Below are positions 1 to 20,100 of a stretch of 20,228 nt of DNA, piece after piece (position 1 is the first letter of the stretch; each line of letters starts with the position of its first letter). The DNA is from Stramenopiles sp. TOSAG23-6 (Eukaryota > Sar). The stretch is taken from NCBI GenBank assembly GCA_900128565.1, contig LT636035.1, positions 1-20,228 of the forward strand, given 5' to 3'. The position numbers were made by a program, and so were the translations under genes. A model generated the notes under the pieces. It had not been told where the DNA came from, did not search any database, and saw nothing but the letters and a program-made list of their open reading frames with translations.

Positions 1-61
1 CATACGAAATTTCGTACCTAACGATTTTTTTTTGAAATATTTTTCCAAAATACATCTCCAG
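1..61 (+). other. 3' part of an intron (introner-like copy A)
   Basis: The segment is AT-rich, contains GTACCTAAC, which resembles a CTAAC branch point, then nine T, then CCAAAATACATCTCCAG ending in AG at 60-61. It aligns with the 3' part of the intron at 3611-3710: 22 nt at the left with one mismatch, a 10-nt length difference, the same T9 run, then 22 nt with one mismatch. Both acceptors are followed by TG, completing a codon in phase 1. The donor is left of the window. Alternatively it is a 5'UTR intron, with ATG 76 as the start. Confidence 0.7.
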
Positions 62-3000
62 TGCCAGAAAATGAAATGGTATTTTCCAAAAGTAACCAAA
101 ATAAAAGTAGAGAAATTAAAAATAGAGGTCTGATACCACCAAAATCAGTTCCGCGTTATAAACCTACCTCAAAAACATCGAATAAACGATCAAAAGTAGA
201 TACTGGTAAATTGGCAAATGATGAAATCGGAATATCTCATAAAAACGAATTCGATGCTAAACAATCAAAAACGAAAAATAGTAAAAACGAATTTGGTGCT
301 AAACAATCAAAAACGAAAGATAGTAAAAACGAATTTGGTGCTAAACAATCAAAAACGAAAGATAGTAAAATAAAAGGGCGTCAAGAAACATTTAATGAAA
401 CTGATGACTCCGAAAGTAGAGACGCTGATAACAAACGAATAAATCAATATGAAACTAGAAGTGTTGTAACAAAAAGTACATTCAATAAACCATTGAATGC
501 AGCAGACAGAAAAAGTACGGAAACAAGAAGTGTTGTTACAAAAAGTATATCCAATAAACCCTTGAAGATGACCGATGGAAAAAGTACTGAAACAAGAAGT
601 GTTGTTACAAAAAGTACATTCAATAAACCATTGAATGTAGACAGAAAAAGTACGGAAACAAGAAGCGCTGTAACAAAAGATACACCCAATATTTCATATG
701 ATGCTACTGTCAGAAGATATAGTAAAACTATTCATGCTGATACTGATACCACTAAATCTCTCACTACTGAAAGTAGACCCAGAAAGAGTATTGACAAGAA
801 TGACGATAAAACTCGCAGAGCTCTTGAAAGGACAAGTAAAATCAATGAAAAGGATACCCCAAAAAATACTGAAAGGATCAATAGGAGAATTATTGAAAAG
901 GATACTGACAGTGCTGTAGAGCGATATCTTAGAGCTCGGAATTCTCGAAATAATAGATTACTTCAAAGAAATCGGGCTATAAGTACTCCAAGAAATAGAC
1001 CATTTTCTTCACAAGATAGCCGTACGGATAGTAATATCACTATACCAAAACGCGATACAATTAGCAATACAAGTACTCATAGAAATAGACCATATTCTTC
1101 ACAAGATAGTCATAGAAGTAGTACTACTACACCAAAACGCGATGCAATTCGCAATGTAACTACAGCTAAACCCACCAAACCAGATAGAACAAAAATTACT
1201 CCAAGCTCTACTCGTTTTGGTATAAAGGAAGATACCGAAGAGAAAACAGTAGAACTGCCCCATAATGTTATCAAAGTTAAGGATACAACATCTAAAGATA
1301 TTGAAGAAACAAATAAAAAGGCAATTCTAAAACATTTAGGAAGATTTGAAACTCGTAGTAGTTCTAGGCGGAAGGGCAATGAAGCAAACTCTGTTAGTAA
1401 AAGAGTTGAGTCTGAGGTTGGCGCGAGTACAGAGGCTAGTTTAAGTGGAAGTACTGGAGGAAGTGCATCTCGTAGTGACAATCAAGAAGCTACATTAGGA
1501 TCAACAGATAGCAATCGTGTGGCATCTACATTGTTGAAATCAAATAAGTCCAAACAAGATTCTCAGAATAGAAGTATAGTGCGACATATTACATCTTCGC
1601 GAAGACGTCCTAGTACGGCACAATCTAGGAATTTAAATGAAAATAGTGGATTAATCATTCGGCGTATTGATTCGCCACAACTTCGGCTAAGGAAATCATT
1701 TCAACATCGTCCTAGTACAGCATCATTTCAACATCGTCCTCGTACTGCATCATTTCAGCGTCGCCATAGTACATCATTTCAATATCGTCCTAGTACAGCA
1801 AGTACAAAAAAAGATAGAATTCCTCGGCGACTTAATGTAAACAGATTAAACTCTTTATCACGTTCAAAAACATCGCGAGCTAAGTTGTTTACAACTTTCC
1901 CAGAATCCACAGAAGACGGTGCTGGTGCAACTACAAATAAGAATTTAACATCCGCATTACCAAATAACTCCGTCAAAAACATCCGACATCGTAAAGAAGT
2001 ACATGCTCGTGCTCAGGCAAAGCGGCGCAGAAGAAGACTTCGGGAGAAGAAAAGACAATCGAAAGCTCATGCATCTGTAGCACGAATTGTGGCTGGTAAG
2101 AGGGATATAGAATATTTTAATAGTGAAACAGAAGCTACAGAAAAATTGTCGGTTGTTGTCACTGTACCACCTCCGCCCCCTAAGCGCAAATTTCAAGCCA
2201 AACTTAATTCTAAAAGAAAGAGAAACTTTATCAAACATTTTTCGGAAGATGAGGCAGATGCTGCGAGGTCGTCGTCGGAAGATACTGAAGGGAGCATGAG
2301 TAGCTCAGAAGTCTCAAAAAGTATAGAAGGTTTGAAAAAGATTTATTTGGAAGCAACGCGATCTTCTCATATCGGGGAAAATACAACACTTAAATTAGAC
2401 TATGAAAAGTTCTTTCATTTTTTCCATTTAAAAAAAACAGACCGTAATAGCAATACACTATTAGCTGAAGCTTTGCTAGATCAAGTTACTGTGTTTAAAA
2501 ATGAATCAAAAGTTGGATTGAAGATTAAACCATGGTGCTGGAGAAAGCTTGTTGGTTTTGGTCCTGTTTTTTTGAATGTTACTGTAAAGGCGACAGATGA
2601 AGGATATTTGGTATTTGCTCGGCATCCTACTGGACATTCAATTGAAACACATTTAAGTGAAAAAGATGTCCGAAAAGAACTTGTCTCATCTGGAACACCT
2701 CCTGGGTTTTATGCGACAAAATCACAACGTGGAGAAATATTACTTTCATCAATTCGTTTGATTAGGTCGAGATCTGGACGAGTACCTTACACCTTCAAGA
2801 TTGTTGGACCCCCACGTTTCCCCACTTCATTGATTATAAGCTTACCGTCAATTATTATAGACGGAATTCGAATGCATGTTCGTGTTTACGCGACATATAA
2901 TTATAATAGTGATCTTCTTTCTAGTGATGACGTTTTAAATAGTACCAGTGAACTTCAAGGTAGTCGTACACGGGTTAGTGGAGTTGTCATTTGGGCATTT

Positions 3001-4999
3001 GAAGGCGATGGTGCAGGGGCAGAGCCATTCTGTGTGCCAACTGATGAACTTCCATGGCAGTGGCAAAAACTTCAATTAAAGCTACATAAAATAAAACAAG
3101 TTGAAGGGAATGAAAGATTCAACGAGCAGAGAGAAGATATCAAAGACGAATTGCGCTCATGTGCTATATTATTAATTCAAAGGATCTATTGGAGAGGCGA
3201 AGAAGGTACTGTCATGGAATTAGCACCATTAACACATAAGGAGAGAATACGAAAAAAAGAAATGTTAAATGTTCTCCGAGGAACACACCAAGGTTTTAGA
3301 GTGAGCAATTTGCTTTTTCGCCGTGGTGACGTTGTAGAGAAGCAAGATTCATATTCTAATAGACTACGCAGTAAAATTGCAGCCGCAGCTACAACCAATA
3401 AAGGTGCATCTACATCAACGACAATGTCTAGACTATTTAAAAGGAAACAAGTCACGAATCACAGCAAAAATACTCTTTTATTTTGGGCAACTTCGAATAA
3501 GAAGGGTCATGGTATGCTTTCGTTTTATGAAGATGTTATGTCACGACTTTTAAACAATCGTGGTGGTGTATGGCAACGCTCAAATGAACTAACTCCTAAT
3601 GTACATGTATGTTTTTTTTTTTTTTTGTATGAATTTATTTTTCATACGAAATTTTGTACCTAACAAATTTAAATATTTTTTTTTGCAATATTTTTCCAAA
3701 ATACATGTAGTGTTTGGAGGATGGGGGGGTAAAGGAATTCCTCTCTATGGAGATCAGTATGATGACGGATTTACCGCCAACGGAATTATCTCAGTAGGAT
3801 CTGAAGTCTTTTCACACAAACATTCTTGGCCTTTATCTTGTTTCTCTGGACCAAATGACCCATGGAAATCAATGACTGGAAATGAGATCAAAGCATTTTG
3901 TGATGCTAGTGAAGGCGAGTTTCAAGGGCAAATACCAAATACTGTTCATGGTAAAACGTGTATGTTATTAAATTTTCAGCCATGGAACTGTCTAAAATAT
4001 ATATGTGATAAAGCTTTAATGGCAAAAACCCTAAAAGCGTATGCAAAACGAGATGGTATCAATATTAATTCATTGATTCCAAAAACTTTTATTTTTGATC
4101 TAAACAAATCACGAGGCGCATCTAACAGTGATCTTAAACGAAACGTAGATAGATTTATTAAAACATACCGTGCTATAGAAAAGGATAACATTTTCAGAAG
4201 AAGATCTGGTATGAGTGCACTTGCACAAAGTAGTCGTAATGTTTGGATATGTAAACCATCTGATGGATCACAAGGACAGAAAATCATTGTTACAGATGAA
4301 ATTGCTAGAGTAATTTCTATAGGAGAATCTTTAAGACCAAATGGTCGAGGATGGATTGTTCAGAAATATATGGAAGATCCCTTGACTGTATCTGGTGGGC
4401 GTAAATTTGATATTCGAGTATGGGTACTTTTGACAAGTGACTTCCGAGTTTGTATATATAGAGAAGGTGTGTTGCGAACATCTGCAGTGTCATTTAGTTT
4501 AGACAATCTTTACGATAGATTTGTACATTTGAGCAATCACTGTATTGCGAAGGAACACCCTGAGTATGGAAAATTTGAACCTACGAATGAATTATGGTTT
4601 TCTGAATTTGATGAGTATCTAGTATCGAAATATGGCAAAGAGTACGGTTTCTGGACTTGTATATATCCACAAATCCGTACTCTTGTAGCACATACAGCAC
4701 GAGCTCTTCGAAAAAAAATGGAAGCCCCGAAAGATGCATTTTTCAGACCCTTTCAATTGCTTGGCTTTGACTTTATGGTTAGTGCCGCGCCGGATCTTTG
4801 TGTTACTTTAATTGAAGTTAATTCATCTCCTGCCGTTGCCGACGATCTTCGAAATGTCATGGCTGAAGACTTTTTACGTGTTGCAATCGATGAGGTATTT
4901 CCCAGTTCTCGAAATAATGCCAACTCTTCATCGAGCCCATCAGGACCTATTCCTGGATTACCCGACGATCAAAAAGGTTTTGATGTGANTCAGNTGTNA
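62..4999 (+). CDS. Tubulin-tyrosine ligase (TTL) family protein with a ~1150-residue basic repeat-rich N-terminal extension; two exons visible, 5' end uncertain
   Basis: TTL enzymes are ATP-grasp ligases that add tyrosine to the C-terminus of alpha-tubulin. Exon 1 is 62-3610 and exon 2 is 3711-4999; joined in phase 1 they give about 1611 residues. Homology supports the join: the end of exon 1 (SFYEDVMSRLL...GVW) resembles the N-terminus of TTL, and exon 2 continues it at FGGWGG. Catalytic-domain motifs seen are VWICKPSDGSQG (4241-4276), RKFDIRVW, YREGVLRT, HLSNHCIAKE, FQLLGFDFM and LIEVNSSPA (4808-4834), closer to TTL proper than to the polyglutamylase TTLLs I know. Vertebrate TTL is about 380 residues, so this protein is over four times longer. 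The first in-frame ATG is at 76, but position 61 looks like a splice acceptor, so coding may begin upstream or the ATG may follow a 5'UTR intron. The stop is uncertain: codon 4997-4999 reads TNA, and the next candidate, 5012-5014, also reads TNA. Confidence 0.85.
241..366 (+). repeat. Three tandem 42-nt units (14 residues, KNEFGAKQSKTKDS type) in exon 1
   Basis: The units are 241-282, 283-324 and 325-366. Units 2 and 3 are identical over all 42 bases and unit 1 differs at three, which indicates recent in-frame tandem duplication. The encoded peptide is basic and probably disordered. Confidence 0.93.
451..690 (+). repeat. Three and a half tandem 69-nt units (23 residues, ETRSVVTKS...NKPL...DRKST type)
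   Basis: The units are 451-519, 520-588, 589-654 (one codon shorter) and a partial, diverged unit 655-690. Units 1 and 3 are more alike than either is to unit 2. The peptide is basic with many Ser/Thr and is probably disordered. Confidence 0.92.
982..1161 (+). repeat. Two tandem ~90-nt units (30 residues, RNRP(F/Y)SSQDS...PKRD type)
   Basis: The units are 982-1071 and 1072-1161. Shared blocks are RNRP followed by F or Y, SSQDS, and PKRD plus A/T and I. The repeat continues the Arg/Ser-rich character of the N-terminal region. Confidence 0.85.
1696..1800 (+). repeat. Four tandem 27-nt units (9 residues, SFQHRPSTA type)
   Basis: The units are 1696-1722, 1723-1749, 1750-1773 (one codon short) and 1774-1800. 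Each encodes SFQ, then H/R/Y, R, P/H, then Ser/Arg-Thr and mostly Ala. Base-level similarity is high, so the expansion looks young. Confidence 0.9.
2023..2226 (+). other. Basic clusters and polyproline in the TTL N-terminal extension (possible nuclear-localisation or microtubule-binding region)
   Basis: The coding shows KRRRRRLREKKR (about 2023-2058), and then VPPPPPKRK and KRKRNF (about 2164-2226). Such clusters can act as nuclear-localisation signals or bind the acidic surface of microtubules. For a tubulin-modifying enzyme, the second role is an attractive but unproven inference. Confidence 0.4.
2320..3230 (+). other. Unassigned folded-looking segment between the repeat region and the TTL domain
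   Basis: From about GLKKIYLEATRSS to QRIYWRGEEGTVMEL the composition shifts from repeats to mixed hydrophobic and charged residues, with likely beta-strands (FLNVTVKATDEGYLVFAR; RVPYTFKIVGPPRFP; MHVRVYATYN). I do not recognise a named domain. It may be a beta-rich adaptor domain of the kind attached to large protist cytoskeletal proteins, but this is a guess. The 55-nt block duplicated at the right edge (2396-2450) lies inside it. Confidence 0.35.
3508..4908 (+). other. TTL catalytic domain (ATP-grasp), interrupted by intron 3611-3710
   Basis: The domain begins near GMLSFYEDVMSRLL in exon 1 and ends near AIDEVFPSS in exon 2, about 435 coding residues. The ATP-binding Lys lies in ICKPS (about 4253), the glycine-rich loop follows as DGSQGQK, and the metal-binding Glu and Asn lie in IEVNS (about 4811-4825). 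All catalytic motifs that I can recognise are intact, so an active ligase is likely. Tyrosine specificity, as opposed to another amino acid, is inferred from overall likeness to TTL and is not shown by any single residue here. Confidence 0.88.
3611..3710 (+). other. Intron within the TTL domain, 100 nt, phase 1 (introner-like copy B)
   Basis: Without splicing, exon 1 ends at TAA 3661-3663 and the TTL domain is in another frame. Removing 3611-3710 (GT...AG) joins them in frame, giving NVHV-L-FGGWGG. The intron starts with a run of 15 T directly after the G at 3611, has a putative branch point CCTAAC at 3659-3664, and ends ATACATGTAG. A seven-base ACATGTA occurs at 3603-3609 and again at 3703-3709, so the exact boundary can slide: a cut one base earlier also keeps the frame (V instead of L) but would not be GT-AG. 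The other donor-like GTATGT at 3607 gives the wrong frame with this acceptor. Confidence 0.82.
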
Positions 5000-5013: not shown

Positions 5014-5017
5014 AAAA

Positions 5018-5023
5018 TTTATT
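5018..5023 (-). terminator. Candidate AATAAA polyadenylation signal for the giant gene
   Basis: The plus strand reads TTTATT, so the minus strand reads AATAAA, about 85 nt past the giant gene's TAA. No other canonical signal is visible in the 107-nt convergent gap. Many protists do not use AATAAA strictly, and the bases next to it include Ns. Confidence 0.25.
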
Positions 5024-5106
5024 TTGATTCAAAAATATATAAAACTACTTTTCATTATTACCCTTCTACTAATGCAGTATTATCAAGCAAAGGACCACAT
5101 ACCCAC

Positions 5107-8100
5107 TTACATCCCTTCACATCTATTTTGCTCACACAAATTCTTCGTTTTATGGAAACTTAGACAAGGAATTAAAACTTCTCGTCGAAGTGGCAACTCA
5201 GAAGCAAATTCCAATCCTCTTGCTTCTGTCGATCCATCAAGTACATTTGTTAATTCTTTGTTCCAACAACCAACACTCTTTGGAAAGGTTCTTTTTTGTA
5301 CTGGATTATAACTGCTGCAAAGGTTAGTACCCATTGCAGATTGATCCCATTCATATCCTTTTGGAATAGCAGACCAATTACCAATTTGATCTTCACATTT
5401 TGATGATATGCGAACTTTTACATTGCAATACAGAAACCCTGAATGATCCACACCAGTTTCATCTTTAATTGATGCTGTCCATACTCTAGGAACTTCATCT
5501 GTATTTACATCGGCGTCATGATCCCAATTACCAGTACATGCAACCTCAGATAATTTCGTTTTATCAGAACATTTACCTTTAAATCTTTTTTCTCTAACTT
5601 CGAAGTCACGCTCATCTCCAGTTGGGCAAATATCAAATCGCACAGTTCGTTTCTGGTCATCCAGCAACAATGGCATATCTTGTGTACCAAAGGTAGTCAT
5701 AATTTTACTTTCTAAACTCAAACCCGTGGTATCATAATCCCCATATTTACTACGATTTTCAGGTGGAATCAAGTCTAAGACCAGCTCCAAATCGTCCGCG
5801 TATGGTGTCTCATTTATCAAATCGAGATAAAAACTCGCACAATCACCAGTTGTAGCACCATTGCCTCGCTCCACATTGCGAGCTTTTTTGCTAACCGTTG
5901 GGCCAGTTAAGTCTAAGTTATTTAGACCTGGCTGAAATTGAACATCAAATTGCTCTCGAGGATCAGTTCCTGCTTCATGTGGACACATAGACCGACCAGC
6001 CTTTGTTCTAAAGACCGGAGTCCCATAAACTTTATCACGTAATACTTCGACGTCAAAATAATCACCGATAGAACTATCACTGAGAGTAAATTCAACAGCA
6101 CGCTCTTCTACACGGGTGTTATCCTGAGAATTATCGATAATATTCTGCCACTCGTCATACCACTCACCATTAGACTCAACATTAATTACAAATATATTCC
6201 AATACCCTGATGCATATGAATTGCTTATCTGTTTCTCTGTGTGTTCAAAGTTGAGTACAAGGGAAGAGGATTGAGAACTTGTGTACGAATACTTTGCAGC
6301 ACTTCCTCCACCAGAAAATGCGACAAGAGATGCAGTACTTTTACCCGAGGCACCATGAATATTTCCTATACCAATTGATGACGACCCAGCAGTAGCTGGG
6401 TCCATATTGCCAATGCTGCCACCGCGGAAAGCATTTTGTTTGTCATTAACATATTTGGGAGATGAGAGAGTGTTATCATCTTGAACCATATTTTCAACTC
6501 TTTCTGATTTTGGATTAAATTTGTTAGTCACTGAGCATTTGTGTTGGTAATACGGCATTCCAGAAGCCTTTTTCTTCTTCTGTTTTGCCCACTTCAAATC
6601 TGTTTTTTTCTGGCCCTCCTCTGTAAGAATTGGTGAATTGTCTGTAACTTCAGAAGTAGTTTTATCTGCTCTGGTACCGTTACAATTTTTAGCACAATAT
6701 CTCTGCCAGTAACACTTTGGTCCAGCAGCAGTGCATGTAGCTCGATCAGTATGCCCAATACATTCTCTACCACTAAACATAATATCTAAATTATAATCGC
6801 GTTCGACACCATTAATAGTTTCTTTGCCAAGTTGATTTGACAGAGTTGAACCCAACATTCCATTTGACGAATCATTAAGAGCCTTATCAGCACCGGCATA
6901 AAATCCAGGGATATCAGGGTTCGCACTGAATCCTTGTTCACCTTGTAATAAGGAACTCGCAACAAGTGCACTTGACTGTACCGGGGTACTATTTGCTTTC
7001 AATTCTTCGTTTAGTTTCAATACACGAATCCATCCTTTTATTGCATCTAAAGTTGCCAAAAGTCGAGCCTGAGCTTTAACAGCATCCTTTGCAGGTTTCA
7101 AAGCTGTTTTCTCTGCAGACGTGTATGTCTTTTTCACTATATTATCACAAGAAGTATTTTTTACCGTTCCCGTTAAACCACATGTTTTATCTTTGGGACT
7201 TCCAGAACACAAAGGCAAGTTACACCAATTTCTACCCGTCGTAGAGTCGACATGTTTATATGTTGCTAAAAGTGAATCAAAATATTTAGACGCTGGGCAC
7301 TGTCGCTTTCCTTTGGAAGGATCAGGATTCCCGGAAGCATTGTTGTTGTAACAATATGTTGTATCGCCATTACCAAATGGTCCTGAATAAGCGATGCTTG
7401 TAACATGCTTGCTTAAATCTACACCAGCAACATCAGCATAGTTACATCGAAGATCATTCCATTCTTCGAAGCAGCGAGCTTGTAATTGAGGGATTCGTGT
7501 TTTTATGACGTCATACACAGTATGAACGGTAACAGCATTCCAAGTATCATCCTTAATAGCTTGAACGGCATAATTTCGTAGTTTCAGAGAAGTCAAATTT
7601 GCACCCATTATATCTGAGTTAGCCACTAAATCAGAATCCACATGAAAGTCATCCAGTTTTGTCTTCAAAGCTTCGTCATCACCACCATTAATGAGTGACC
7701 AAGTGCTGATTTCATTTGCTGAATATCCGGCGCATTGAGCATTCGGCTTTCCCACACAAGTTGCATCGCCTTTACAAAAGACATCATCATCTCGGAAGAG
7801 AATTGGTAGTGCTGTTTTTGTAATGATGGCAAGGGAAGGAAGTACGATTAAATCTTGGAATGCGCCTCCTCCAGCCTCGGCACTCGTACTGTATTCTGCA
7901 GATGCAGTCATGTGTACTTCCATCGTACTTTGCATTTGCCTGAAGGCATCACTTGCCAAACCACCATTATTGTCATCCAGATTTCTATATCCACCAACCA
8001 TTCTTGTATCAACCACATTAATCTCCATGCCAGCAAGCATACCAATACCACCAAAACCACCGGCAACTGGTTCAGCGTCACCCGCAATTTCTTTCCGAAA

Positions 8101-11100
8101 TGAAACAGCTGCACCAGCACCCCAGTCGGAAGTATGTCCTTTCTGACTAGCTTTAGTGAATCCAACAGTTACACCTACAGATAGTGTGGTATCTTTTCTC
8201 CAAACAGCGAAGGAATCATCTCCAGGAGGATCTCGAATAATAGTAAATGGTACATACTCGGGAAGCTTGATGGATTGATTACGAGTGAGATCAACCTCAC
8301 CCTCAACAACAATATCTGCTGTCCAAGTCTTTGTCGTCAAATTTCTGACTGCTTTTGCAGATGGTAGATCGTCTTTTGAAGGGGTGAATGTGTACTCTAA
8401 TTGTTTGGTGAATGGATCATATCTCTCAGGAGAAGAAAGTTGATCAAAGTATAATTGATAAAAAGTTCCTTCGAGAGTCTCACCAGATATATCACATAAT
8501 GCAGGCTTTGTTACCACGCCGGCTTCTTCTGGTGTTGTACCCACTACTCCACAAGCATGCGTTAATATATTCTCTGCAGTACAGCCAGTAGATTTTGTAC
8601 ATTTAGTGCGAATATATCCAGCATTTTTTGGTTGACCATCGCTGCCATATACTAGAATAGAACTGCTCACAACAAAACGAGAATCCTTCGAATACGCTAG
8701 ATTGTCGTTTGTGTCAATCTTACCTGGTACATATAAAAGTTTTGGTAAATCTCCACCTGGAAGATCCATAACTTCACTACCATTATCACTAGTTGCATAT
8801 GCTTCATGTGCAGCAATAGTTGCAACTACTTCGTTATATGCTCTCTTTTTGACCATCGTAACACCATAGAGAGGCGATGAATCCATGCGTAAACAACTGC
8901 GTAATGAAGATGTTTCACCACTACTGTTCAATACCAACTTCAAAGTAGCTTTCTTTCTAAACATAAAACTCATTTCTGGGTCCGTATCTTTCGCATCTAC
9001 AGGAATAGCAGGAAGCTCGCGAAGATATTTGGCTACTCCTGCCTGTCCTTTTGTAAATTGAGGTTCTCCTTGTACGTCGCCTGGTATTCCTATATCCACC
9101 TTATTAATAGCAATTGTACCCATATTTGTAAATGTTCCTTTTGTTACAATTATAGCAACATTTGTTTTATCGTTAGGATTTTGCCGAAACACTGTACCTT
9201 CCCCAGATGTATTGACGACATTCGAAGGGATTCCAAGGCTTTCAGCATTATCTTTATCGTCAATCATCGTCACGGGTATTTTTGAAAACACGCCTGATGT
9301 AACTGAAACGACTATATCGGGTTTTGTTGAGCCACCAGTGTGATGTTCAACAAATGTTGGAACACCTGCGTCATATTCAACACCATTACTGTTAACAGTA
9401 AGTTTTCCACCGGAACTTCCAGCTACAACTTCTTTGTCACCTGTAACCAAAAGTATTGCATCGTTATTTTCACTCGAATATTTAATCAAAATAGCACTTG
9501 CTTTGGAAGTTGCTTGTGTCACAGATGAACCGAGTGCAAATGCAAATGGTGGATTAGAAGACGCAAGCCCCTTCACCCGGACAAGTACACCAGCGACCAA
9601 ACCGGTAGCGCCACTATCTTGAGAAAATACAGTACCTTTAGGATAAGCCTGTTTTTGCAATCCACTTAAAGTAGCAGTTTTTTGGCTCACTATATCATTT
9701 TTCGAAAATGTTTTTGTACCATTACCGAGCTTGAATAAAGTAGCAGGCCAAGATTCCATATCGTCAACAAGCACAGATATTTCATATGGCAAATCTCTTG
9801 GTAGTCTAACTGAATATTCTCGTCCGCCATGTTTTTGTGTTCGTGTATTAGCTAGAGGTATAATTCGATCACATCCACCAGCGAAACCTTGATGGGTTGT
9901 ACCAGGACCAGTGAAAGTCAGTTTGAAAGATACTTTCTGTCGGATTTCGGTGTGTAGCGAAAATGTTGTAGCAAATTGTGCATTCTCTTCAGCATCGGTC
10001 ATGTTAGGGCCACCATTATGCTTTATAAAACGACCAGCTGCCAACCGAATGATTGGATGTCGACTAGCAACTTCAATAAAGATTATTTCAGAACCTGCTG
10101 ATGCAACAGCGGCGCTAACACTACCAAAGCGACCACTTCCATCACCATATTCACTACCCACACGTTTCACACGACTATTGTCATTCAAAATATCCAAACC
10201 TTTGATAATTTCTTTGCTCTCACTATCACATTCCATGACATAATCGCTTGCCTCTTTTGGGCATCCATTTCGAATTTTTACATTCATTCCTCGAGGAATG
10301 CTTAGACCAACTTCACCTGATTTATCGGTGACTCCACAGCCAAGGAGGGAATTATCTGCCGTAAAAGCACACATAAGAATATTTTCTACCCCGCAAGATG
10401 AAGGGCTGCTGCCTATTCCTACATCTGGGTGTACTACCTTTACTGGCACTGTAACAACAGTTGTATCAACGATTTTCATATCGGAAAGAATTTGATGCTC
10501 AAGAATCTTAGAAATACTAGTTGGTACAGCATCCATGCCATACGTCCCTTTTTCAGACACAAAGTTGTGTTTATATGTAACAACATACTTTGAGTCGGGA
10601 CTTGGAAACATAGACACACGAGTTGGCATTATATGAATCCTACGAATATTTGAATTTGCACCTGTATCACCAGGTCGGACATCTGAAAATGGAATCTCTA
10701 CAGCCCCTTCTTCTCCAAGTCTGACAGATGAATATTGACGAATTAATCCAGACCAAGCATTTATAATCTGAATATCTGATTTTTCACGTTCTGCCCTTGG
10801 TGGAGATTGTGTAGGAATAGACATCGCAGCTTTTTCAGCATCCACAAGAAGAAGAATTGAAGCATCCGTATTTTTCTCTGAACCAAATTTGAAATTTAAC
10901 CAAGGAAGAGCTGAATCGTTACCAGGTAATCGCAATTGATCTTTATCGTGCAAGGCTTGAGCAGTTTCAAGGAAGATATTAAACTCACGTTTCTGTGCAC
11001 CACTAGAAGGTGGTGCAACAGGAACTGCATCTAAGGATGTTTTGTCACATTTAGTAAACACACGCATACAGCTATCCCATTGACTTGGACGGAACCCTTC

Positions 11101-14100
11101 ACAGCACTGAATTGTATCCGTGCCAGAAAGTAGATCACCATTCTTATCTAGAATTTTCTTATCAAAATAGGCAAACTTGGCCACATGAGGATCGCATTCA
11201 ACCTTTTGATCCTCAATTTTCATATCCTTTTTAATCATATCTTGGCCAAATATAAATGCACCCCGAGACTCGCCAGACATTCCACCAGCAAATTCAAAAG
11301 TCGTTTCGTCTGGACATCGAGCTTTATACTTAAAACAGAACTGTGGTGTTGCTACATCACCCACAAAAGGCGATCGATACACGTCATTTTCTGTAATCTT
11401 TTGACTCCCAGTTAATCCACATGTATCGCGACAATGTCGTGCCATAAAATGCCATGAAGGAAGTCTCTCTACTCGGAAATGATATCCAAATCCCAGAAAT
11501 CCATACTCAGATTGTACACCACCTGTTCGTATTACTTTGAATTGGGTACTTGTTCGTTCGCCTACATGAAGGAAACAACCTGGCGCCTCTGCGTACCACG
11601 CTATACCATCAGTGTGATCTAAAATCATTTCAAAATCAGGTTTGTCAGTTTTGTAGTTGACAATTGTATCTTTTACATATTTACATGCTTTCGACAAACT
11701 ATTATCTTTCTTATATGGTACTAGTGTTTTACTTGTTGCCAATGCGGTGAATGATACCATCGAGCCGCCATCGCCTAATGAATGTTGCCATGCATTTTTT
11801 GTTAATGCGGCACCCAAAACGGATGCATTGCACTCTACTTCATTTGTTGTACACAAAACTGAATTAATCAACACACCTGATTGGGGTTGACTACCACCTT
11901 GAGACATTATAAATATTTCCATAGAACTTTTCCATCCCATTGTGATGGATGTACAAGTCCAATCTGAGGTAACAATGACAGCGTCTCCAGGAATTACACT
12001 TCTGATACAGTATTCAACCTTCAAACCGGTGGAAAGCATTATATCTTGACCAAAATCTTGATGTGACATACCTGCTTGAATAAATGTGTTGCAAAATGTT
12101 TTATGTGCATAGGATTGAACAGGCGTTCGTTGCTTATCAAAAACTTTGTTGAAATCTGAACCAATTTGTTCATTTCTATCACGCACAAATTGATATTGAG
12201 TAGCTGCACGGCAACCTGGCTTAAAGGCAAAAGATACACCACCACCTGTCCATGTTGCTTTCAGTACTGTTGGCTGACATGTTGGGTTTGGACCATTATG
12301 ATGTGTCATTCCACATACAGTACTCTTTGGCAAGGAACTCAACACAGCTTCAGCAGTAGTCATTCGTCTGCATATAGCAAGCGATTCAACTTCCACACCA
12401 TATGAATCGAGAGATCTCTCTTTTCCATTCGCTTTATCAAACGCAGAAGTTGAAACAGGATCAAAGGCCCACGTGGTCACACTTTGGCTCTTTGAGACTT
12501 CCGCCAGACAAGATCCAACCATGTCTTTCGAAGTCACATAACTTGCCTTCGAATTCTTCGCTGTGATCGAATGGGCCAGAGGACTCAACCCAAAAGCTTC
12601 TCTTTCTTCTGTAGTAAGGTTCACAAAGTTTTCGTCTGTTTGCTTCCAAGTTGCTGATGGACCGATCGCCCATTTTACACTTTGTGCTTGAACCATAAAA
12701 CCATTGTTTAAAGTCACCATTGGAGGAGACAGATTTGTGGTGCCTTTCATTAGCTGTGCATATTGACGCTTGATATGGTCCAACAAAGCCTCGGAAGTTT
12801 GAGGAGGTAATAAAACATCCAAAACAGACATTTCTGCAATAGAGGCGCCGGAAGAGAATGTTGCCGATAATGTTTTGGTAGAACTTGAAACTTTCTGATT
12901 CGTTGGTCTTGAACCACCGATATAATCCAAACTTATTTCTTCACGGAGAGATGGTTCAACTTTGCTCAAGTAACAGCTTTTATAATTTGCTGAACGAGGG
13001 TTGCGGTCAAAGCCCCAAGCCTGACATTTCAATTCAGAGGAACACAAAGCTTCACATTTGCAAGGAGATGACATTACAAACAATTTGTAATGTTGCCCAG
13101 AACCAACACCAGAGCCTCCAGCAGCCGCTGCGATTTTTGGACCACCCATACCACATATAGTGATTTTCCCAGCATTTGCACCGCTACCTATGATACTTGC
13201 ATTATAATTTGCTTCATCACTTACGTGATTCTTTATGAAAACTGAATATTTGTTTAAAACTGCAGTCGTGCTTTCAGACACGATAATTCCAGTAGGACAT
13301 TGAACTTTTGAATTACATGGTTGAGTTGTTCCCGCACTCTGATCACACACAGCTCCACCATGCTCAGCTTTACGTAATATTGTGTACGATCTTGTTTGGG
13401 TCCCGCCAACGCAATCTTTGGAACATTTCGACCAATCGGACCACTGACCTACGCAATTCACTGGACATGTTTGAGTGTTGCATGCTTGTTTCTGTGGGAA
13501 ATGTGTGCCACATTTTGTCCCTCCATTTGCAGCAGGTGTAGTAATGACATAAGCTTTAGTCTGAGTTCCTCCACCACAACTCTTGGAACATGGACCATAA
13601 TCTCCATATTTTCCAACACAATCAACTTTTCTAGGTTTTATACAACACTCTTGAGATGTACAACTACTTCCTGTGCAGTACAATTCCTCTGGTTTATTGC
13701 CTAGATCTAGAAGAGGTTCTTTGCTACAATCGAATTTCTTAATTTCTCCCTCTTTAGCATCTGTGTTGTTACATGTTCTACGAGTTACTGTACAACAAAG
13801 TGATGCATTACACGGCCCAGCACCATTGTCAGAGCATTTCATATCTTTGGCATTTTGATGTAGGGCTTTGGGGTGCTTTTCACATGAATAAGGTGTAGGT
13901 GTTCCGTCTCCATCTATGTCATTACAAGTACGATTACCTGATGGGTCTACTGTACAACACGTGGCAGCAGTACATGTACCATTCGTACATTGAATTCTTT
14001 CAGGCTGGCCGTCGAGACTTTTTGGAGTAGGATCACTCTTACAATCAAATGCAACAGGTGCTTCTTTTGATGCATTAATATTAGCACACGTTTTGCGTAT

Positions 14101-17100
14101 TGTTGTACAACATTCTGTACTTGTACATGGATTTCCTGCACATTGTATAGCAGCAGGCGTGGCGCTTAATGCATTGTCTTGTAGAGAACAATCGAAAGGT
14201 GTCGCAAATTTAGCCCCCAGTGCGTTACGATCAGCACAAGTTCGAGCAATGGGAGTGATTGTACAACATAAAGCTGCAGTACAAGTACCATTCTGAGGGC
14301 AATTAATAGACTTAGGGTTTGCATCGATATCCTTGGCATCACCCGAACAACTAAATGTACTCGATGAACCAGTTGCCCCTGGATCATCACATGTCCTCTG
14401 AAAGCGTGTACAACAATCGGAAGCAGTACACTTTAGAGGGTTTTCAGTACACTCAACACTCGCTGGATTCGAATCGAGAAGTTTTGGCGCTGAACAAACG
14501 AAATCAGNACCATCNGCTGAACCATCAGCATTACGATCAGCACATGTTCGTTTTGGAGGTGCTACAGTACAACAGAGGTCTTGAGTACACTTGCTTCCAC
14601 ACCGAATGAACTCCGGTTTTGCGTGTAAATTCAAAGCATGTCCCGAACAATCCATTGGATGAATCTTCGAACCATTACCCTTTGGATCCAAACAAGTTTT
14701 TCGAATGACAGTACAGCATTCTGTAGCTGTACATTTGGAAGAATCCGCACACTGTTTTTCTTCAGGTTTTGCACGCAATGCTAAAGTTTCGGCGCTACAA
14801 TCGAAATTATCACCATCTACGCCATCTTTATTAGTATCCCCACATGTGAGTGGGACTTCGTCTTTTTTTTTGTTTAAAGTTCCATGATTATTATGTTGAC
14901 ATTTTGTACCAGTACCACATTTTGAGGACGCTGTACAGTATACAGAGCTCCAGCAACCCTTGCCTGTTGGGCAATCTGTATTTGGCGAGCCACCGTATAT
15001 GTTACATAACAAACACTCATTTGTTTTAAAATCGTTTTTCTTCCAGCCACCCCATCCAGCACTTTGACACCATCCACAACTCTCACCAGGCGTGCAAATA
15101 CCTGCACCTTCACTCAACCTACGAGATGTTCTTACAAGTCGTCTTCTACTTCCGGTACTACTGGAAGACGACGCACCCAAAATGCCTAATTTTGTCATAC
15201 TTGGAGATAAAATCAGTGTGGATCCAGTCGCGACAACAGAATTTGTGACACGTACGTCAACACGACTAATCACTACTCCGTGTGGGATACCTACACGAAG
15301 GACTTTACCATTTAAAGCAGCTGCTCCAGCAGAACCACCACAATCGAGATTTCCATCAACTGCACGCAAAGCTTCCGTTGCATTATCTGTAATCTTATTT
15401 CCAAAATATATCGGACGACTTGCCAAATCAAGTTTGTACTCAACATCGAATTGATCCTTTGCATATGCCGAGATTTCACAAACCGAAACGTTAACGTCGA
15501 TTGGGTGTAATTCCAGAAAGTTTTCCTCTAAATCCTGTAACGAATGTCTTATGAAATGAGGTGTGCGACCATTCGTCAAAGTTTCGTCGCATGCATGTAT
15601 CAGAGGGGAAGATATCTTTGAAATCCAATTGGAACGTGTACCAACATATAATTGGGCACCATCTATACTTGCCTTTTGCGATTGGCAGTTTACACTAGGA
15701 CCACTAGGAATCCCTTTAACGACAACACGCATGGGAACTACTCCTGGACTTAGATCAATTCTTATAATACCTTTCTGAATTTCGTCTGTTGTGATGCACG
15801 TGTTAGGGTCTCCGTCTACTAGTGCTGGAGAGGATGCACTACCAGCAAGTAGTGGGGATACTGCGACGGGAGCAAGCAAGGCAACATTAGGATTATTTGT
15901 AGTTATTGTAGATGGTGCAGCATATATTTCAATCTCACATACTGACATTTTTTTACTACCGAGGAGCCACACTGAAAAACGATTCGCTCCTGCGGGCCCT
16001 GCTGGCATAGCAAATGTGTATGTTCCCCCACTTGACACTTTTCCATACTTCATTACAATCTCAGGCTCGCTGGCACTTGGAGCACAAGAATCGTCAACTT
16101 CACCAGCTGGGCATGGAATTATATCGGTACTTTTACATTCTGAATCACTAGATGCGTAGCGAATTTGTGACCCTGACTGGCCTAGATCGGTTTTACAACA
16201 ATGACTGCCGTTGCTGAATACAAAAGTTCCGTTTGGACAAACTGCCTTATATTGTACTGATTGTGTTGGATTCAATGCATATTTCGGTACTACATGTCCA
16301 AGAATGGTACCATCAAGCTCAACAGTAAACGTTGCACTTGTGTCTGGATCGGTCAATTTTGAAGTTGTACGCACAATCACCTTCGTAATCCGAACAATTC
16401 CTGGATCCAGCTCGACTTCCCAGGTACGAATTCCATTCGCTTGTGACTCTGCACATGTGCTATTTACACCATCATTACCTAATTTAGAAGAAGTTCCTGC
16501 ATTGGCAGTTGATGAGAGCGATGATGGACGATTTAAAGCAATATTAGTCTTTCCTTCTCCAATTTCTGACGAATAAATTTCAACTTCGCAAATAATTAAG
16601 GACTTTGACTTTTCGGATGCATCTGAACTTGCAATGAGTTTCAACACTGGACGCGGTCTTGTTTCACAGAGTCTTGCATCCCATTGCGATGCATTGATAT
16701 CCTCTTTACCACGAGAAGCAGCACCCGACCGAAGACATGCGGTTACTTTATCATCGCCTTCAACAGAGAAGAGTGGTTTTAATTGAGGAAACTTTGCAAT
16801 TGCAATTGTCGTAAATTCACCACCAGAAGATAAAGTTGGTATAGTATACGATGGAAACGTCAAAGTAGCACCTTCATTCGACGATTCAATTGTTTTACCA
16901 CCTTGACCATTATCACTCAGAGTTAAACTTTTTACAGGGGCCACTGTTGCAGTTTCTTTAGTACTAGCAATGGATGTGGAATGCCAGAGACCAGAATGTG
17001 CTGCCTGTTTACCAATACTACTACCAGATGTGTCTTCTTGAAACCCATCAACTGTGTATTGAGCGCGCAAGAAAAGAGGAAGATTCTTACGAAAGAGAAA

Positions 17101-20100
17101 ACGCTCTACATCTTCAATTTGAGATTCTGTCAGAGGAAAGTCCGTGTGTAGAACCATGATTTCTGCAATCTGAAAAGGAGATCCAGATGTCACACCATCA
17201 GGGTTTATCACCAGTTGAATTCCTGCTAATGAACGCGCCGTTCGTCTATTAGCTACCAAAGGCCTTGTCACAAAGTTTGATCGATATCCAAAAGTGGTAG
17301 AAGAAGAGAGCACCCACGCCATATTACCATGTTCGGTACCCGGTTTCGTGTAAAACGGATGTCTATCAACCATTTCCGTAACAAAATCGTCAAAATGGTT
17401 GGCAACACCAGACTTTCCTGAATCGAAGCCATCAAACCAATTTGCTGCATTTAAATTTTGGAATATTTTTTTTTGAGAATTCGAATCTTCTGAACCATAC
17501 CGAGCAATATGAAATAACGTAGAATATTTCCCTCTTCTTGTGCCTTTTGAAGCATTATCTGCATCATCTAGGTGGTAAATAGAGGCAGATGCAATTGCAA
17601 CTTTATTTTCCTTTTTCACTACTGCAGTTGTAACATCGCCTATTCCTAAAGTCATTGCTTGATGTGTTGTACTTGACACATCATATCCAAGACAGCATGC
17701 TTTAGACGTAGTATCTTTTGGAAGTGTCTTCCGCATTGCCCATTTTTTATCTGCTTGGAAGACGGTACTCGATAGTGTACCAAACTTGTGAGATTGACCG
17801 ACAAATGCAAGACTTTCCACTGCGGTTGTTTTTGGAAGCGTCACTTTACACTCGATGTTTGAATCACTACTACAGTTAATAGTCAAACTGAATATTTTCA
17901 TTGGAACTCCTTTGACGTCGTGTGTTGTTGAGGTTTGCCTTCCTACTTGTGCATACACTTCACCATTGTATTTCCATTTATGTGAAACAGATGANCCACC
18001 AATATTTCCTTCTNCAGTGGCTACTTTGCCATCTAGGAGTCTTGCAAAATGTTTTACTTCTCTCACTTGTGCCAAAGTAAAACCAGGAGGAAGAGTGCAC
18101 GCCTTAGTTGGGTTCTCTGGATCAACACATTTGTTTGTTCCTCTTACACAATGAATAGGACATTTCGCTTTTGAGAACGTTACATTATACTTGTCTGGCG
18201 TAGGCAATAAACTCTCGGGTTTTGGAAGTTTAACCAAAGAACTTGTATTTGTACAGAAATCACTCTCTGTCTTGTAAATCCCGCTGGGTACAGTATATGT
18301 AGGATGACTCTCTGGACAGAAAGGAACAGCAAAACAAGATCCCCAATCACTACCACCGCCAGCTGATGTCGTACCAACAGGACACTTTTCAAAACATTGT
18401 TTTACGTTATCAGCCAGCATAGTTTTTGTTACATCAGTCGGTGCACATTTGTAAAAGTGAGCATTGCCGAAACATGCTTTGATGCTTTCTCTCTCAGCTG
18501 GAGGCACACAAGAATCATAAGGAGTATCGTAGTAAATTTTCTTACCATCAGGAGTTTTAGTCTTCGGACAACAATTTGCCCCATTATTATATGGAGTATA
18601 ACCATCAGGACATTTTGTGATATACACAGGACTAGCATCACAGCATATTTCACCATGAGAAGCGAAACCTTTCCCATTATTAATAATATGAGAACCTTCA
18701 AGTTGCACACCATTACCAGTACACGCACCACATTTATCAGATGGACAAAACCAACCTGACCTCGGAAATGAATTTGGTTTCATACTCATGTCCATATTGC
18801 TTTTCTTCTCTTTGCCATAAAAGTAATGATTAATGTCCCATGTACTCTGTGCTAAAACAGAGACCGTAAAAGTAGTTCCTGGAGGTGCCGAAAATGATAT
18901 TTCTGTGCCTTCTGGGACATGCTTAGGTCCACGAAACAGCGTAGCATATCCTTTCTCTGACAAAGTGAGTGAAGCCGGGATAGAAGAAAATTTACAATCA
19001 AGCAATGATTCTTTCTGTTTCAATGTGTATACACCATTTACAAGATCCACTTCAGTCGTTTCACTTACGTCTGTAGACGTATTGAAACATTTTGCCCCCT
19101 CTTTCATTATATCACGATTCCATCGCAGAGGTCCAGAGTGTCCAAGTGTAGCAGTACTACTGCGCATAGCTCTCTCACATAAGCAATCAAATATTTTATC
19201 TGCTTTATATTTACCACCACCAAGAGAAGTTCCATGTGCATCAGCACATGTAAAAGATTGATGGTTCTCAGCAAGTCTGGCTTGTGCGCAACCTGTATTT
19301 TTCATGAACTTGTTTTGACCACTTAATAGACAAAAATCATCGCACGTTTGAGAGCCATCATTGCCCAATACCCAGACAGTTCTATCTACAATTGCACTTA
19401 TAGAGACTTCAGCTGCGTCTTCATCAGCACCTGCAGCATCACCAAGAAGTTTCACTACGACATTAAATGTCGAAGGTGGGGCACTTGTTTTGGGTAGACT
19501 AATATCACAATGTGATCCATCTGGAGAGTTTGTATTAGTTGAGGTGCAAGATACAAATTTAGAATATACATTCACGTCTTCATTATTCAATTTAATAGAA
19601 CTTAAATCATCAACAGGCGTAAAACCTTCTCGGCGGAGAGAAGCATCACTCATTAAGTAATATTGCCGATTAATGAAATTATCATAGAGTTCTAGAACTT
19701 CAGGTGGTTGAGATTTAAATCGAGAACTGCGTGTTTTGCACTGAGTTGCCCAAGATAATCCCGGTGTATTCCATGTACCATCCACTTGACAAGCCGATCC
19801 TCTCAATACATCAAAATTATTTGGCCCTTCGCAAATGAAATCTTCTTTTCCATCCATATCGCAATCAGCAGTATAAAAACGCCCACCTTGAGCTTGTTGG
19901 GATGGCGTACAAAAGCTTTCCAATGCACGAAGACAAGAAGAATCACTCAAAGCATCAGGACATGCTGGAAGTGCGTAAAAATCTTTAGGAAATGGATTTT
20001 CCCATGGTGTTATTTGACATTGCATTAGTGCTCGAGTCATATTATTTTCTTTGATACCTTTCGATGGATTACCTGGATTGTAAGCTGGTTTCTTTTTCTC

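Follow-up and report, generated by a model that had tools for sequence, protein, structure and literature searches.

An introner family whose copies usually end in AT in the genome of Stramenopiles sp. TOSAG23-6

The window analysed in this work, the whole 20,228-nucleotide contig LT636035.1 of Stramenopiles sp. TOSAG23-6 (GenBank GCA_900128565.1; contig 85 of an assembly of 8.03 Mb in 408 contigs), includes a tubulin-tyrosine-ligase-like gene that carries two copies of one small repeated element, which is present in roughly two thousand copies in the genome and is placed inside genes like introns. The gene was assigned by a TTL domain (PF03133, at about 4160-4858, E=7.8e-46), and its sequence near the 3' end contains Ns. 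The features of the locus are listed below; "family rule" refers to the borders that fit other copies of the element, from GTAYG to AATACNN, and a slash in sequences marks a border.

1..55, + strand: copy A, an introner-derived intron of which the contig edge leaves just the 3' part (core match and 3' end rule)
56..4980, + strand: tubulin-tyrosine-ligase-like host gene, exons 56-3606 and 3707-about 4980
3605..3606, + strand: upstream copy of the 2-bp repeat, AT, probably retained in the mRNA
3607..3706, + strand: copy B, a complete introner-derived intron of 100 nt, GTATGTTTT...AAAATACAT, phase 0 (family rule)
3607..3615, + strand: GTAYGTTTT, the 5' splice site motif in the 70-copy base profile
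3643..3664, + strand: core CRTACGAAATTTYGTACCTAAC, formed by the near-palindrome TACGAAATTTYGTA and then the branch-point-like CCTAAC (3659-3664), a candidate for that role
3696..3706, + strand: 3' end motif YCAMAATACAT (base profile of 70 copies)
3705..3706, + strand: downstream copy of the 2-bp repeat, AT, the final two intron bases, where AG is usual

Copies A and B share, as the initial annotation of the window had noticed, two 22-nt blocks with one mismatch each (1-22 with 3643-3664, and 34-55 with 3685-3706) and a T9 run; the length difference between the blocks is also present, its size being 9 nt by recount and not 10. The left contig edge does fall inside a copy, and 5 of 100 listed core places in the genome are found no more than 35 nt from the start of a contig. 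The borders, in contrast, had to be revised. Copy B, previously placed at 3611-3710, is best read as 3607-3706 because the rule fitting the other copies gives those borders (the position was set by this rule and not by a homolog of the host gene), and its removal would yield the in-frame ...NVH/VVFGGWGG..., with the exon restarting at GTAGTGTTTGG. By the same rule the tail of copy A ends at 55 instead of 61, the exon resumes at 56, and the AGs proposed as acceptors, each followed by TG, fall in exon sequence. The phase 1 assigned to both introns was retained for copy A, where it is read from the downstream frame (the upstream exon lies outside the window), and replaced by phase 0 for copy B; phases are mixed in the family (26/21/19 among 66 frame-consistent copies).

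The check proposed by the initial annotation, a search of the whole assembly, was run with the core CATACGAAATTTYGTACCTAAC, and allowing up to 3 mismatches it gave 2,213 matches (1,150 forward and 1,063 reverse), with none for the reversed-pattern control; a 22-base form of the core was found twice in the window and in none of 100 shuffles. Chance similarity is thus excluded, and a local duplication does not account for these numbers. The counts are inflated by near-duplicate contigs and by inverted duplications inside contigs (C13 and C14; C2, C4 and C27): at least 14 of 100 listed rows of AT-ending matches repeat another row, nine of them as contig 14 counterparts of contig 13 rows, and the number of distinct copies is therefore somewhat below the match count.

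The anatomy of the element was examined in 39 stretches of the genome (233.7 kb). A first core scan gave 251 places, palindromic opposite-strand matches included, of which 89 lacked the two ends (nested, cut and AG-ending copies among them); 140 sense-oriented elements were kept after orientation and length filters, 37 of these were dropped for poorly matched ends, and the remaining 103 copies, one of which was counted twice, correspond to 102 distinct ones. A rebuilt profile gave fewer copies and was abandoned, although the 70-copy base profile used for the end motifs was derived from it. Median identity to the nearest sampled copy is 90%, and introns of unrelated genes are alike to near both splice borders across the 103 copies. 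Elements with at least two cores in a row were observed in L039 (about 8450-8640), L043 (about 7680-7850) and L046 (about 840-1000), and by eye they look like nested or tandemly duplicated introners with one 3' end. An origin in viral contigs was set aside on the lack of matches in IMG/VR to a single exact family pattern, a result that does not extend to diverged copies.

Copies follow the layout NN/GTAYGTTTT ... CRTACGAAATTTYGTACCTAAC ... AATACNN/, in which NN is a 2-bp direct repeat, usually AT, and the end motifs in the base profile are NN/GTAYGTTTT and YCAMAATACNN/. The elements are AT-rich, have a median length of 101 nt and begin with G in 95% and T in 94% of the 70 copies at the first two intron positions, respectively; CCTAAC lies a median of 41 nt upstream of the element end, and an AG occurs between core and end in 16 of the 70. 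The elements share with canonical U2-type introns a GT donor and a branch-point-like motif tens of nucleotides before the 3' end. U12-type introns have the donor ATATCCTT or GTATCCTT and the branch sequence TTCCTTAAC, and were set aside on motifs, given the donor GTAYGTTTT and the branch-like GTACCTAAC found here. The ends carry inverted terminal sequences of about 6 nt (ATGTAT...ATACAT); in predicted folds the first and last 8 nt are paired in 45/103 copies against 81/1030 shuffles, which weakly supports paired ends.

The direct repeat matches in 76 of the 102 distinct copies (63.9 expected); counted over the 103, the NN of the two ends agree in 77 (63.3 expected), a value not reached in any of 10,000 permutations, and 68 copies have AT as both of their NN. 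The element has a short direct repeat and inverted ends; a target-site duplication, terminal inverted repeats or both are expected of introner-derived introns. The reconstructed target is CATG in 15/103 copies, whereas this word makes up 0.39% of the 4-mers in the coding sequence of the window. Duplications longer than 2 bp were looked for with k=1 to 6, in one register and 70 copies, and none was found. The 7-nt repeat ACATGTA at the edges of copy B, initially taken as the target duplication, is better described as the general 2-bp repeat in a CATG-like target, the longer match overlapping the element's own ends.

The position of the cuts was addressed by frame and by homology. When the frame on each flank was called by codon use, cutting out GTAYG...AATACNN kept it in 66 of 78 informative copies, whereas a cut to the first AG after CCTAAC kept it in 30 of 78, about the value expected by chance. 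Once the element is taken out, 127 of 139 junctions fall within an open reading frame (ORF) of at least 60 aa; shifting the 3' cut by 1 or 2 nt lowers the number to 69 and 76. The element thus breaks into the coding frame, which is restored when it is removed. Against homologs, all 11 informative junctions in five conserved proteins were gap-free:

ClpB (L027): 2 junctions gap-free in the homolog alignment
CaM-kinase-like protein: 2 junctions gap-free in the homolog alignment
nucleotide-sugar transporter: 1 junction gap-free in the homolog alignment
HSP70 (L059): 3 junctions gap-free in the homolog alignment
hydroxyacyl-CoA lyase (L039): 3 junctions gap-free in the homolog alignment

The sequence around the third lyase junction is variable, one of the five aligned relatives having a one-residue gap nearby and another an insertion; two junctions of RNase Z, beyond the aligned region or just at its limit, were left out of the count. 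Among in-frame copies whose two NN differ, 15 of 20 favour retaining the upstream pair, with summed log-odds of +10.0, 6.2 of which come from one copy, in the lyase, where the alternative choice introduces a stop in the conserved NDACWTQ. In ClpB the alternative turns a V common to both aligned structures into I.

AG is the near-universal 3' end of introns. In this family AT dominates: genome-wide, exact matches after GTACCTAACN12-42AATAC, for which only these three endings were counted, are followed by AT in 954 cases, GT in 38 and AG in 32, with zero in each reversed control, and the 102 distinct sampled copies, a set biased by having been chosen by likeness to AATACAT, end in AT (88), GT (6), AA (3), AC (2), TT (2) and AG (1). 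In the seven of the 32 AG-ending copies that were examined, the upstream NN is AT in four, AG in two and TA in one, so that some AG ends may stem from insertion at AG and others from a subsequent change towards AG. At L051 3828 (+ strand) a copy reads AG/GTATG...AATACAG/, with AG on both sides, and constitutes an introner made canonical GT-AG through its target site.

Canonical introns coexist with the elements. Among 63 gaps between adjacent coding segments, 48 contain the core, two the branch-like motif only and 13 neither; by inspection the latter include diverged copies ending ACAATACATG and clear GT-AG introns. A canonical intron GTAAGT...CAACAG is located in L050 (within 5014-5129, minus strand) and a GT-AG intron ending ACAATACAG in L052, and a domain search detected a PRP8 domain in the genome.

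Regarding the host, ClpB as read from L027 is identical to the EukProt protein GSMAST32.ASY1.ANO1.1583.1 over most stretches common to both, and the lyase of L039 aligns at 97% to GSMAST32 ...2007.1. The label on these proteins with identical exons points to a marine stramenopile (MAST), probably of MAST-3, the latter being our own reading of GSMAST32, a label for which no explanation was found in the consulted text of the single-cell study of MAST-3 and MAST-4 (PMC5778133).

The best explanation of these data, and one that we regard as quite probable, is a single MAST introner family that duplicates 2 bp and leaves the RNA as an intron ending in AT. The element would insert into coding exons at CATG-like sites, duplicating 2 bp, usually AT; the transcript would then lose GTAYG through the end of the downstream 2-bp copy, by which the reading frame would be restored, and since removal extends through this copy the 3' splice site would normally be AT (AATACAT/) and not AG. 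Removal would take place at the RNA level and would probably be carried out by the spliceosome: the canonical GT-AG introns and the PRP8 domain favour the U2 spliceosome, with CCTAAC as the putative branch point. As to its spread, a non-autonomous element moving by DNA transposition is envisaged. Of the initial interpretation, the introner family is strongly supported by the genome-wide core matches, the matching ends, the short direct repeat and the nearly exclusive location of copies in sense in coding exons; the mechanism suggested, canonical splice sites provided by the target duplication with both introns in phase 1, is not supported, as the duplication measures 2 bp, phases are mixed and the 3' end is usually AT. 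By a narrow balance we also favour the broader view that the spliceosome of a plankton lineage has come to accept a second and almost uniform kind of 3' splice site (AAUACAU/), imposed by a transposon family, while canonical introns persist beside it.

Several points weigh against this explanation. Frame calls relied on codon use alone and on copies with well-matched ends; 12 of the 78 copies violate the frame rule, some of them with mis-set ends, 12 of the 139 junctions have no bridging ORF, and the copy at L045 6522 has clean ends and is nevertheless out of frame. No same-species transcript was present among the 120 hits listed for each of the ClpB, HSP70 and lyase protein searches, which admitted sequences of 0.55 to 1.75 times the query length, so that short fragments were out of reach; the second hit listed for ClpB is 55% identical, the best listed for HSP70 belongs to another organism and the closest listed for the lyase after the EukProt model reaches 75%. 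Searches of the genome for U2 and U6 snRNAs gave no match, a result that does not show absence.

The mode of spread is the point on which an alternative survives best. Among 102 copies with enough flank to be scored, 93 score as coding in sense, four in antisense and five as neither, and six of these last nine (in L018, L027, L043, L048, L053 and L054) are bridged by a sense ORF that contains them. None of these well-matched copies is clearly antisense or intergenic, although 938 of 2579 90-nt windows do not score as coding. Such near-restriction to sense exons points to targeting or selection that is strong, or else to an RNA step, and spread through RNA, by reverse splicing into transcripts followed by copying into DNA, would be compatible with removal by splicing. 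The two NN pairs, however, covary as a target-site duplication predicts: the six GT-ending copies all have GT upstream and the sole distinct AG-ending sampled copy has AG, which argues for insertion into DNA with a 2-bp duplication, with the caveat that only two of the seven further AG-ending copies have AG upstream. DNA transposition is rated higher, RNA-mediated spread being a possible but rather unlikely route.

A different machinery of removal was considered as well, in which the paired ends would be cut from RNA by a dedicated nuclease and joined by a ligase, as proposed for the noncanonical introns of euglenozoans. The inverted ends ATGTAT...ATACAT, the excess of end pairing over shuffles and the 3' end without AG are in its favour, but end pairing is predicted in under half of the copies, the GTAYGT donor and the branch-like CCTAAC are strongly conserved as in spliceosomal introns, and AG-ending copies with the same core occur. 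We consider non-spliceosomal removal improbable.

Ordinary GT-AG introns of one repeat family, with the next downstream AG as acceptor, would be in line with the AGs that end 4 and 6 nt after AATACAT in the window and with the 32 exact matches ending AATACAG. This possibility was rejected, and is given very little credence, on the frame counts above and because it would remove conserved residues, as seen in the EukProt model of the lyase (P0241): WGDGS is gone, TQIEREQIPILDS is reduced to one residue and two residues are lost at the third junction, each loss directly downstream of an element, the kind of error that gene prediction bound to AG acceptors would make. In the EukProt model of ClpB (P0001), IIFSQY is inserted at the first junction and other sequence replaces a conserved stretch after the second; this model has six further gaps in exon sequence where no element lies and, being poor in general, provides weaker evidence. 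Public models of this genome are thus wrong at the elements in both genes, and others may need checking. Least credible of all is removal at the DNA level, with the sequenced DNA as a germline form, for although precise excision leaving one 2-bp copy would be expected of transposase-derived excision, the donor and branch-like motifs would be left unexplained, standard introns coexist, and we know of no internal-eliminated-sequence-like system in stramenopiles.

Introners that carry or co-opt splice sites were surveyed by Gozashti et al. 2022, Micromonas and Aureococcus included (PMC9860276). As far as the main text of that survey goes, the MAST family resembles them in the similar introns shared by many genes, the short direct repeats and inverted ends present in many families, the gene bias and the aquatic protist hosts, and differs in that the rare types named there are 5' sites (GC, GA), whereas here it is the 3' site that is unusual, being mostly AT. 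MAST is not mentioned in that main text; the supplement, outside the scope of this comparison, could list the present assembly. In Amoebophrya, according to the available part of the article, hundreds to thousands of introner families have inverted repeats of 8-20 nt and direct repeats of 3-5 nt at the borders, non-canonical ends and a spread likened to that of MITEs (PMC7789003). No clear terminal dinucleotides are described there, while the MAST elements, in another lineage, have fixed GT...AT ends, form one superfamily and combine short inverted ends with a conserved branch-like core.

In the animal Fritillaria borealis, from what the consulted portion of the report states, less than 10% of introns follow GT/AG, some of the others ending in AC or AT, their removal is by the U2 spliceosome, U2AF is duplicated, and introner transposons with weak splice sites are proposed as a possible source of introns (PMC13326754); unlike these, the MAST elements keep a GTAYGT 5' site and mostly one 3' motif. 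A search for the U2AF large subunit in the MAST genome gave nine matches, none over the cut-off. In diplonemids and euglenids, noncanonical introns share with the MAST elements the non-AG ends, the inverted terminal sequences and a proposed MITE origin, but in the sections consulted they are described as having extensive end pairing and no conserved GT-AG (PMC12621601), in contrast to the standard-looking donor and weak pairing found here.

As non-AG introns derived from transposons are reported or proposed in Amoebophrya, Fritillaria and diplonemids, the kind is already known, and the new part is the fixed GT...AT intron form in a stramenopile. The suggestion that the family had not been described for this lineage agrees with the literature searched on introners, MAST introns and stramenopile introners, in which no description was found, supplements and subscription papers being outside the search; in the main texts of two MAST genome papers the word intron does not occur. 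The answer that emerges, a target duplication that would become the 3' splice site whatever its letters, looks simple and is testable. If true, a large share of the host introns depart from the AG rule in a single uniform manner, and the family would provide a natural system to learn to what extent the spliceosome's need for AG can be relaxed, and in which factor.

Downstream of the host gene, the minus strand of the window encodes a very long ORF (5107-20173; 5,039 aa when followed to the end of the contig) that has thrombospondin type 1 domains (PF19028, PF00090) and in which no match to the introner core was detected. Read on the minus strand, the final 55 bases of the window (20174-20228) are identical to 2396-2450 (plus strand) inside the TTL-like gene; this duplicated contig end is likely an amplification chimera, and hence the large ORF on the minus strand probably has an artificial start.

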